Assembly: GCF_014836985.1 (NCBI RefSeq)
Contig: NZ_JACSPU010000001.1
Coordinates: forward strand, 1,023,855-1,087,854
Length of the DNA stretch: 64,000 nucleotides
Direction: 5' to 3'
DNA from: Planococcus wigleyi
GTDB lineage: Bacteria; Bacillota; Bacilli; Bacillales_A; Planococcaceae
A model generated the notes under the pieces. It searched no databases and had not been told where the DNA came from. It worked only from the letters and a program-made list of their open reading frames with translations. Positions 11,492 through 48,307 of the stretch are shown one piece after another (the stretch's first letter is position 1; each line of letters begins with the position of its first letter). The position numbers were made by a program, and so were the translations under genes.

Positions 11492-11819
11492 GAAAAGCGC
11501 AAGCGCCCATTTGAGGAACGTAAGCTTAAAGGCGCGACTTCCTGTCGCAACGCTTACATGATCCGCATCCTGCGGACCTCTGCCGGGCATAAGACAGACC
11601 AGCAGAGTGGCGTTCTTTGCCACGGCAGCTGGGTTGGCTTATGACCCAAAGAGCTGGGCACTGGAGTCTGGACAAAGAAAAGCGCAAGCGCCCGTTTAGC
11701 TCTGACAGGTGTAAGGCGATTTGGCGAAGCGGCATGTTTTCAGCCGCACAGCCAGAGCGACTTACATCCCGAAGAGCTGGGCACTGGAGTCTGGACAATC
11801 AGAAAAGCGCAAGCGCCTT
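11492..11819. repeat. Tandem copies of the GAAAAGCGCAAGCGCC intergenic repeat
   Basis: The 16-base motif GAAAAGCGCAAGCGCC occurs three times (11492, 11677, 11802). The first two intervals end with the same string AGAGCTGGGCACTGGAGTCT plus GGACAA (11650-11675 and 11773-11798). The unit is thus about 125-185 bases, tandemly repeated, with a partial third unit. AAGCGCAAGCGCC-headed intergenic repeats are common in Bacillaceae. It contains no gene and lies between deoD and ctpA. Confidence 0.8.
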
Positions 11820-39345: not shown

Positions 39346-39765
39346 ATGAAGTTCAAAGATTTTTTATCATCAATCGGCATCGGGTCTTTAAAAGTCGAAA
39401 CGGTAGTCGAAATGCCGCATCTCGAAGAAGGCGAAACATTGAACGGGACAGTGTATCTGGACGGTGGAGACGGCGATCAAACAATTGATTTCATTGAGTT
39501 GAACGTCATCAAACTAGTCGAAAATACACGGGACGACAGCGATTTCGATTTTTACGAAACGGTCATCGGAAAACAATCGATGGAGTTTGCAGGATCGGTC
39601 AAATCAAAAGAAACGGTCATGCAGCAATTTGAAATCATGCCTGATGAACGCTGGATAGTGGATCATCCAAAAGCAAAATTGATTTTGCGTACTGTCGTCC
39701 ATGTAAAAAATGGCGTCAATGCACAAGATGAAGACGAAATCACATATGGAACATACGAGAGCTGA
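39346..39765 (+). CDS. Short Spo0M-like (arrestin-fold) protein
   Basis: The sequence MKFKDFLSSIGIGSLKVETV and EGETLNGTVYLDGGDGDQTI matches the N-terminal arrestin-like half of Spo0M, but at 139 residues it is about half the length of B. subtilis Spo0M. The frame ends cleanly before a good terminator, so this is either a natural short form or an old truncation. Spo0M modulates sporulation and cell shape in Bacillus. Role here is unknown. The ATG follows a GGGGG stretch. Confidence 0.75.
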   Translation: MKFKDFLSSIGIGSLKVETVVEMPHLEEGETLNGTVYLDGGDGDQTIDFIELNVIKLVENTRDDSDFDFYETVIGKQSMEFAGSVKSKETVMQQFEIMPDERWIVDHPKAKLILRTVVHVKNGVNAQDEDEITYGTYES

Positions 39766-39785: not shown

Positions 39786-39920
39786 TGCTTGCAGATGAGG
39801 GCGAAACTGAAATTAATTAAATGAATAGATACGATGCTGAGATTAGTGGAAGTTTTTTCAGCAAAGCGGAATTAGTATGCGCCAACGAAAATTTAGAAAA
39901 CTTTGTTCTATTTCATTAAT

Positions 39921-39953
39921 GATATTGATAATCATTCTCACTTGTGATAAGGT
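39921..39953 (+). promoter_or_regulatory. Fur box overlapping a SigA-type promoter
   Basis: GATATTGATAATCATTCTC (39921-39939) matches the 19-base Fur consensus at 17 positions by eye. A promoter TTGATA-17-TAAGGT (39925-39930 and 39948-39953) with TG before the -10 box overlaps it. Iron-loaded Fur would block this promoter. The transcript would run into the structured leader and the small exported protein at 40361. Confidence 0.75.
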
Positions 39954-39957
39954 ATGT

Positions 39958-40300
39958 GAGAACACAAATTAAAAATTAAACAAAGGCACAAGCTATCGAA
40001 AAAAAGCGAAGCTTGTGCTTGGGTGTTGCAATAGCCAGCTGGTTAACCTGCAGCAACAGGCCGTGACCCTGTATTTGTGGAAGGAACCGGTTAGGAAAAG
40101 TGGGAGAATGCTGACATGATCGCTTTCGTCCTTTGTTCGGAATAGTTTTCAGACATTCCGTCTGGACGTGAAATTATCGGTTAGCAGAAGTGTAGAAGAG
40201 GCTCAGGCGCAATTATTGTTCAAAGGTGCTCTGCTCAGCATCTGTGGAACAGCAAATGCTGCCAGGAAGCCTCTATTATTTTTTACCAAATTCCTGCTAA
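39958..40300 (+). ncRNA. Long structured leader of unknown class downstream of the Fur box
   Basis: The first element is a hairpin GCACAAGCTATCG / CGAAGCTTGTGC (about 39987-40018). Next are GTTGC / GCAAC pairing around CCAGCTGG, and ACAGG / CCCTGT. Between about 40197 and 40275, AGAGGCT and AGCCTCT can close over an inner hairpin CAGCATCTGT / ACAGCAAATGCTG and are followed by ATTATTTTTTACC. That last unit looks like a terminator or expression platform. Some strings recall cobalamin riboswitches (GCCAGCTGGTTAACCTGC), but the order is wrong, so I do not assign that class. Confidence 0.4.
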
Positions 40301-40360
40301 TGGTGCATTGCAGCTGGAGAACAAAGGAGTCCAGCTTACGGCTGATAGGAGCGGAGGCAG

Positions 40361-40720
40361 ATGAAGAAAGCAATGTTGTTGCTGTGCTTGAGCCTGTTTC
40401 TATCCAGTGATGTTCAGGCTCATGTGCCGGGTGGACAACTGGAAAATCGCAATCATGTGGAAGGTGGTGTGCAAACGGCTATTCTGCTCGAGGCTGTGCC
40501 GGATGCTTACCCACAAAAAGCACATTTGCCCGCAATTCAATATACAAGGCTCGAAATAAAGCTCGCTGATATGTCGTCAGCCGAAATGAAACGAGAACTG
40601 GTGAAGGCAGAATTGGATGAAGAAGCAGGACAAGTCGATTGGAAAACAGCCATCATCGTATTATGCGTCGCTTTTCTGGTTTACTGGATCAACAAGAGCA
40701 AGCGGCAGGATATCGATTAG
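40361..40720 (+). CDS. Small exported or membrane-anchored protein under Fur-type control
   Basis: The 119 residues begin with a signal peptide (MKKAMLLLCLSLFLSSDVQA, cleavage likely after Ala 20), then a short outside part starting HVPGGQLENRNHVEGG and a C-terminal membrane span (about residues 94-110, AIIVLCVAFLVYWI) with a basic tail. GGAG lies 9 bases before the ATG. I recognise no family. The Fur-box promoter and structured leader upstream suggest an iron-related role, perhaps in metal or haem handling at the surface. That is inference from context. It has its own terminator. Confidence 0.6.
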   Translation: MKKAMLLLCLSLFLSSDVQAHVPGGQLENRNHVEGGVQTAILLEAVPDAYPQKAHLPAIQYTRLEIKLADMSSAEMKRELVKAELDEEAGQVDWKTAIIVLCVAFLVYWINKSKRQDID

Positions 40721-40874: not shown

Positions 40875-41339
40875 TCACTTCAAAGGGATATCGTAGATCA
40901 TTTTGGCGCCGAGGGCTTTAATTTCGATGTGGGGGGATGCTTTTTTCAGGCTGGCTATTTGCTCGGTTGCTGCCTTTTGGGCATCTTCGAAGTTCCGATG
41001 ATTCTCAATGCTTCGGGTAGGCTGAAGTTCAAAGGGAGCAGAAGGCGATTCTTTAATAAATAATAATATTATGTAACCTTCTTGTATAGAAGTATCCATA
41101 AATGTATTGGGCTCAATCAATAATTCATTGTCAGGGAAGTAGCTGATTTTATCTTCACAGATGATCGCAATTTTTTTCAAGATCCATATTTTCGAGTAGC
41201 CGGAAGAAATGGTGGATTCGACTCGCTCAAGTACGGTTTCCAGATGCTGTTCAAACAACGGAAACAAATGCGGATGGTGAGGGACAAAGGTAAAGTAAAT
41301 CCGGCTATCTTGTTCATCGAGCAGTTGAAAGCGATTCAC
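40875..41339 (-). CDS. Hypothetical protein, 154 residues
   Basis: A GTG start follows GGAGG by 7 bases. The protein is soluble with mixed alpha/beta composition (RIYFTFVPHHPHLFPLFEQH near the start, SIENHRNFEDAQKAATEQIA near the end). There is no signal peptide or membrane segment. I recognise no family or catalytic motif. It is convergent with the small exported protein and stands alone. Confidence 0.6.
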   Translation of the reverse strand: MNRFQLLDEQDSRIYFTFVPHHPHLFPLFEQHLETVLERVESTISSGYSKIWILKKIAIICEDKISYFPDNELLIEPNTFMDTSIQEGYIILLFIKESPSAPFELQPTRSIENHRNFEDAQKAATEQIASLKKASPHIEIKALGAKMIYDIPLK

Positions 41340-45622: not shown

Positions 45623-45654
45623 TACAAATAACCAAAAGGAATTATTTCAGAAAT

Positions 45655-45755
45655 GCGCCGCACTTCCTCACGCAGGTATTATCCTGATCGAGTTATAAGG
45701 GATCGAAGCTTGCGCTTGCATCTCAGCCATAATGGGCACCCCTAGTGCAGTAAAC
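45655..45755 (-). ncRNA. TPP riboswitch (THI element)
   Basis: Read on the minus strand the conserved blocks appear in order: GGGGTGCCC (45742-45734), CTGAGAT (45726-45720), GATAATACCTGCG (45683-45671) and GGAAGTG (45667-45661). This is the thiamine pyrophosphate aptamer. When TPP is high it should favour the terminator at 45590-45622 and shut off ykoFEDC. Confidence 0.95.
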
Positions 45756-48181: not shown

Positions 48182-48285
48182 AAAAAATCCTGATTACAAA
48201 AAACGAACAGATCGTTTTCTGTAATCAGGATTTTGCGGTTCCTGGTAGAGACCCTTAAGCCATATTCTTAAGGTTATACAGACGC
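48182..48285 (-). ncRNA. Adenine riboswitch with terminator, controlling pbuE
   Basis: On the minus strand the aptamer reads TATAACCTTAAGAATATGG, then CTTAAGGGTCTCTACCAGGA and ACCGCAAAATCCTGATTAC, the purine-riboswitch core. The base at the specificity position is T (CCTGATTAC, not GACTAC), which indicates adenine. Its 3' strand ATCCTGATTACAG can instead pair with TGTAATCAGGAT to form a terminator with seven T residues (48182-48236). This is the on-switch design of B. subtilis pbuE. Confidence 0.96.
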
Positions 48286-48307
48286 TTATGAAGTATTTAC
48301 TTTGAAA

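Follow-up and report, generated by a model that had tools for sequence, protein, structure and literature searches.

Among the closest described systems are the small RNAs FsrA of Bacillus subtilis (84 nt) and IsrR of the staphylococci, which, according to their descriptions (PMC7430163, PMC9410917), share with the locus reported here a Fur-controlled RNA, conserved stem-loops and a Gram-positive host genus. The FsrA source also attributes RNA binding to CitB of B. subtilis (PMC7430163). Unlike FsrA and IsrR, the Planococcus RNA forms the 5' leader of a protein gene; it measures about 400 bases, occurs in seven of 46 genus genomes and has no match to the FsrA model. A literature search, with most subscription journals outside its reach, found no published work describing a leader RNA for iron control in this genus, and the novelty of the element rests on that search and on Rfam. 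The favoured reading, given a probability of roughly 0.45 on the sequence evidence, is a gene with a Fur-controlled promoter and a cis-acting translational leader element, in which the apex of hairpin III would hide the ribosome-binding site (RBS). The coordinates in Table 1 refer to the window, that is, the whole stretch of 64,000 nucleotides that was analysed from Planococcus wigleyi.

Fur box, promoter and the protein gene

The original prediction of a near-consensus Fur box overlapping a good promoter, which drives a small exported protein of unknown family, largely stands. The box core TTGATAATCATT is present in 7/7 orthologous loci, and Fur box-like sites have a mean of 0.00 over 100 shuffles of the window. 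Two further distinct sites within three mismatches of this box exist in the whole genome, one located between siderophore-type ABC ATPase-like and ferredoxin-reductase-like genes and the other just upstream of a FecCD-like permease gene, with all these identities read from the sequence. The box overlaps the promoter, a feature of membership in the Fur regulon, at a promoter position assigned by eye. The quality of the promoter is a different matter, as a simple automatic scan lists none on the + strand here, so that the label "good" derives from the conservation of the bases picked out by eye. Transcription is predicted to start near 39960.

The structure model of the protein is poor (mean pLDDT 53.4) and places helices at residues 2-20, 60-69, 73-90 and 94-118, the first predicted to be a signal helix and the last a C-terminal membrane helix. 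Pfam, NCBIfam and PHROGs hold no match for the protein, and a profile search of solved structures returned only two weak matches, both to the signal-peptide regions of antibody chains; the model is of too low a quality to support a fold search. The coding tail (33 codons, 21 pairs) has a mean pS of 0.62 and a mean pN of 0.14, with dN/dS of 0.06-0.18 in seven of eight listed pairs (those with computable dS), and is under purifying selection. Conversely, the outer part of the protein varies in length and sequence among relatives: the relative in genome G013 is a 285-residue form with an SLH-like stretch just below the Pfam cut-off, and the protein of G034 ends a few codons early.

Table 1. Features of the Fur-controlled leader locus, in window coordinates
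Feature	Position	Strand	Basis
Fur box TGATATTGATAATCATTCTCA	39920-39940	+	2 mismatches to the 21-base consensus TGATAATGATAATCATTATCA
Promoter: -35 TTGATA (39925-39930), 17-base spacer, extended -10 TGnTAAGGT (-10 at 39948-39953)	39925-39953	+	reading by eye and conservation
Untranslated structured leader, about 400 bases	39960-40360	+	fold z -3.48; no upstream frame common to the seven species
Hairpin II: lower stem CUGCAG/UUGUGG, upper stem ACAGG/CCUGU, loop CCGUGAC	40048-40080	+	6/7 species, covariation
Hairpin III: conserved core 40206-40263, apex UGCU-CUGCUC-AGCA at 40227-40240	40197-40274	+	7/7 species; two-sided changes in 6/23 pairs
CUCUGCUC, apex of hairpin III, complementary to the RBS	40229-40236	+	8 contiguous pairs in 7/7 species
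U-rich run ATTATTTTTT after the hairpin III stem (40197-40274)	40275-40285	+	window sequence
RBS GGAGCGGAGGCAG, with the proposed apex partner GAGCGGAG at 40349-40356	40348-40360	+	strongly conserved, 7/7 species
Gene of a 119-residue exported protein with a C-terminal membrane anchor, orphan family	40361-40720	+	ORF, profile searches, predicted helices

Leader RNA and its two hairpins

The leader, whose length is counted from the predicted start to the ATG, was predicted to be untranslated and structured, and its folding bears this out: bases 39955-40380 reach a minimum free energy of -138.4 against a shuffled mean of -120.1, and 0/100 shuffles fold as well. The Fur box, hairpin III and the RBS are conserved in all seven species carrying the leader and hairpin II in six of them, while the remaining leader is divergent. 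The seven species share no upstream open reading frame with a Shine-Dalgarno-like string. A frame reading CSAQ(H/Q)... across hairpin III, with some silent changes, was rejected as coding, having no ATG, GTG or TTG before the motif in 4/7 species; in G045, a stop lies just past the CSAQ motif in this frame.

The alignment of homologous leaders reveals compensatory changes in both hairpins. Specifically, over the 11 pairs of hairpin II in six species, 92.4% of cells are paired (shuffled mean 83.6; 0/500 shuffles as high), two-sided changes affect five pairs (reached by 6/500 shuffles), eight further pair types occur (7/500) and covariation is 0.352 (0/500), and slid control versions are 21.2-43.9% paired. 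Its loop CCGUGAC is invariant in 6/6 species, and G045 does without the hairpin. Over the 23 pairs of the hairpin III core in seven species, 87.0% of cells are paired (reached by 5/500 shuffles; slid versions, 25.5-50.3%), with two-sided changes in six pairs (48/500) and nine cells (11/500), 16 further pair types (155/500) and a covariation of 0.246 (12/500). These two-sided changes all fall in the lower stem and none in the apical helix, and the apex is nearly invariant, with the loop CUGCUC in 7/7 species. Since the shuffle statistics ignore kinship, on alignments of at most seven species chosen to be gapless around the motifs, the support from the sequence comparison is graded as good for hairpin II and as moderate for hairpin III.

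Covariance models of the hairpins, run with stricter filters in the large searches, lead back to the same place: the hairpin II model finds six loci with E below 1e-9 in 46 genomes and the hairpin III model seven loci with E below 1e-15 in 261 genomes, every one at this leader locus. Reverse-strand matches of the hairpin III model correspond to its own palindrome. Its weak matches (E 2e-5 to 4e-4) are terminator hairpins in G036, G043, G015, G016 and G001 that have the outer bases in common with hairpin III and lack the CUGCUC loop; they lie away from the protein gene in G036, G043 and G001, and G015 and G016 have no such gene. Still weaker matches comprise four in other genera (E 0.003-0.03) and one in G022. 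In five other species (L069-L073, around 1500-1550), terminator-like hairpins flanked by A/T runs carry the same or nearly the same 15 bases, CATCTGyGGAACAGC, as hairpin III does on its 3' side, whereas the loop is absent from them. A dispersed palindrome was considered for hairpin III and rejected, as its own genome holds one other site within one mismatch of CATCTGNGGAACAGC and hence no repeat.

The hairpin with a U run that had been predicted is present in the window, where it could terminate transcription. The stem is found in 7/7 species, and a U-rich tail follows it in only three (the window, G037 and G044), the other four being unlike it by eye, so that termination does not seem to be what the seven species conserve. 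This result bears on two other readings of the leader. In the first, the leader itself or a product of its processing would be a small RNA of the FsrA/IsrR kind, controlled by Fur and acting in trans, which would end at the terminator-like hairpin III, with some read-through to the protein gene, and thus have a dual function. The Fur promoter, the conserved loops and the U run in three species all suit such an RNA, as does the description of IsrR, in which the pairing regions likewise sit in stem-loops and H3 and the terminator are poorly conserved (PMC9410917). Moreover, the FsrA model RF02273 scores above its cut-off in 0/46 genus genomes (no match in the same genome as the window, weak matches in 4/46 with E 3e-4 to 1e-3), while the B. 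subtilis control matches. However, occurrence in only 7/46 genus genomes and absence at this place from close relatives would be unexpected if the RNA had a core role in iron sparing, the U run is clear in 3/7 species, and the RBS downstream is conserved together with hairpin III. A separate small RNA is rather improbable, and less likely than the cis-acting translational element.

The second, judged about equally improbable, is a riboswitch that binds a ligand or an attenuator that binds a protein, with termination at hairpin III as the switch. A long structured leader, the terminator-like hairpin of the window and the invariance of loop II speak for it; against it stand the sparse U run, the species without hairpin II, the lack of any apparent conserved multi-helix junction and the absence of an Rfam match. 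With regard to the last point, a search with the covariance models of Rfam 15 gave nothing credible for the window leader or the six orthologous loci, only chance-level matches far below gathering scores, so that no known class is recovered. The cobalamin resemblance suggested by strings noted in the original prediction is unsupported, as the cobalamin riboswitch models give no match at the gathering score or at E <= 10, and known riboswitches, cobalamin included, were rejected on this ground. Elsewhere in the window, a TPP riboswitch (45648-45753, -), a purine riboswitch (48202-48301, -) and a Bacillaceae-1 RNA (11509-11576, +) score above gathering.

Complementarity between hairpin III and the RBS

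The cis-acting reading rests on a feature newly found here and noticed post hoc, after inspection of the data, namely that the apex of hairpin III can pair over eight bases with the RBS of its own gene. CUCUGCUC and GAGCGGAG form eight pairs without a gap in 7/7 species, with three substitutions within the 16 pairing positions: in G031 both partners are changed, from C-G to U-A, which is the single two-sided compensatory change, and in G034 a G-U pair is turned into A-U. Regarding chance, 28 of 2337 leader hexamers match the duplex energy of the loop CUGCUC with the RBS and 138 reach its six pairs, while an apex sequence shuffled 5000 times achieves eight pairs with the RBS in 177 cases; another place in the window leader, near 40129, offers nine. 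Loop III is predicted to be unpaired (1.00) in 7/7 species and the RBS to be largely paired in nested folding (unpaired 0.00-0.50). When duplex energy is combined with constrained folding at a pseudoknot penalty of zero, the six-pair interaction beats the nested fold in 3/7 species and the eight-pair interaction in 1/7. On RBS hiding, the outcome is complementarity in all seven species with one two-sided change, balanced energies, and chance eight-pair runs in 78 of 2092 other leader 14-mers; pairing with the RBS is the most likely function of hairpin III.

A single gene would thereby be induced when iron is scarce, and its own leader would then hold expression back. Fur loaded with iron would cover the promoter: the box and its conservation are observed, and repression would follow from what is established for Fur. 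At low iron, the leader and the mRNA would be transcribed and the leader would fold its two covariation-supported hairpins, after which the apex of hairpin III would pair with the RBS, about 115 bases downstream, in a long-range loop interaction that hides the site from ribosomes. A second signal, for example a protein, a small RNA, a metabolite or RNA processing, would free the RBS and allow the membrane-anchored protein to be made; hairpin II may help to receive this signal, although it is missing from one species. A role of the protein in acquiring metal at the membrane is probable, as suggested by the Fur box and by the nickel/peptide-type ABC operon that contains the gene of the G013 relative.

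The original prediction had also proposed double control, by Fur and an RNA element, over one orphan exported protein. Conservation in seven species and covariation make such control of one gene by Fur and the leader RNA likely, and the leader qualifies as a candidate new RNA family, of an already known kind. Two outcomes that the original prediction had named as refuting, an Rfam hit to a known class and a lack of covariation among homologues, did not occur. The data do not establish its accompanying suggestion of a new class of riboswitch or a small regulatory RNA within the leader: what is conserved amounts to two simple hairpins, the U run is unconserved and the best-supported function is the pairing of hairpin III with the RBS.

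Distribution and comparison with known systems

Two sets of genomes were searched, 46 of the genus and 261 of the taxonomic family. The protein is found in 17/46 genus genomes by single-sequence search and in 18/261 family genomes by profile search, all 18 within this genus (18/46). Fur box, leader and protein occur together at the equivalent place in 7/46 (G000, G037, G044, G031, G034, G002 and G045), in each case after a Spo0M-like gene. In the window, an AI-2E-type transporter gene and the Spo0M-like gene (39346-39765) are followed by the Fur box, the leader and the 119-residue protein gene, and then, on the opposite strand, by an orphan coding for 154 residues (40875-41339, -). This second orphan has no Pfam or NCBIfam match and is present in 6/7 leader species, not being seen in G045. 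Beyond it, also on the opposite strand, lie what are presumably an ECF-type transporter set and a DinB-like gene. In G011, ecfT directly follows the Spo0M-like gene, and G027 aligns with G011 there; in G006, a different gene takes this place.

An FmdE-like gene is present in 11/46 genomes, which are exactly the 11 protein carriers without the leader (11/11, versus 0/7 of those with it). It adjoins the protein gene in ten, the two genes lying on different contigs in G040. The name is a soft one, since in a Pfam scan of three such proteins that of G007 was above the FmdE cut-off, that of G013 just below it and that of G042 without a match; in G028, the gene is frameshifted (L026 7886-8392, +). 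Fur-like sites occur among these carriers as well: a box with two mismatches about 200 bases upstream of the protein gene in G007, a degenerate string seen by eye in the G028/G042 group (eight genomes), and in G013 one box with three mismatches to the consensus at the head of an ABC operon, near whose end the protein gene lies, and another with one mismatch at a LysR gene. The G013 operon (L027 7292-11204 and 12431-15935, -; L116 528-2174, -) includes, besides the SLH-like relative, a nickel/peptide-type ABC importer, an FtsE/FtsX-like pair and the FmdE-like gene. LysR-type regulators with a cysteine-rich CCxxCPxEINGxCY motif (L026 6399-7289, +; L116 2370-3320, -) lie upstream of the protein gene in the G028 group and at the head of the G013 operon, and might sense metal. 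The G013 operon occupies the same slot as the leader locus, and a Fur box there differs from that of the window by one base. A transporter-operon remnant was considered for the leader locus; in the 12 further genomes tested, the G013 binding protein has nothing but paralogues of at most 30% identity, which makes the operon look specific to G013, and the idea was dropped.

The distribution also bears on two further readings, each judged quite improbable and below the alternatives weighed above. One is a dual-function Fur-induced RNA: iron starvation would release the leader as a small RNA that works in trans by means of the two conserved loops, with read-through making the orphan membrane protein, as a lineage-specific stand-in of the FsrA type in species without the FmdE-like gene. 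The other takes the leader mostly as a by-product of locus rearrangement that left the Fur promoter distant from its gene, with the hairpins as stabilisers or weak terminators, and a labile locus with the protein in 18/46 genomes, the seven leader species without the FmdE-like gene and a largely unconserved leader would fit it, yet loops are invariant and stems compensated although synonymous sites of the coding tail differ at 62% on average.

If the cis-acting translational reading is true, the leader is a candidate RNA family that stacks iron control by Fur with an RNA checkpoint on one gene. The interaction lends itself to direct testing, since the bases proposed to pair are specified and a compensated variant already exists in one species, and the clean split between the FmdE-like gene (11 relatives) and the leader RNA (seven) would offer a tractable case of the origin of a leader RNA within a genus.

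With regard to the other known systems, the locus resembles the iron-responsive element, a target of aconitase (CitB of B. subtilis), in that an iron-controlled transcript contains a hairpin. Loop II is faintly similar to the CAGUGN hexaloop of that element; however, loop sequence and size misfit, as neither CCGUGAC (6/6) nor CUGCUC (7/7) is this hexaloop. With Fur-regulated surface proteins of the Isd type, the locus shares the Fur box, the signal helix and the C-terminal membrane helix, whereas its orphan protein has no recognised domain and, in 261 family genomes, is confined to one genus. Lastly, as in the anti-Shine-Dalgarno leaders that control translation, a conserved leader stretch is complementary to the RBS of its own gene; unlike in those leaders, no Rfam family matches here, and the stretch sits in a hairpin apex some 115 bases 5' of the RBS, in a transcript with a Fur promoter.
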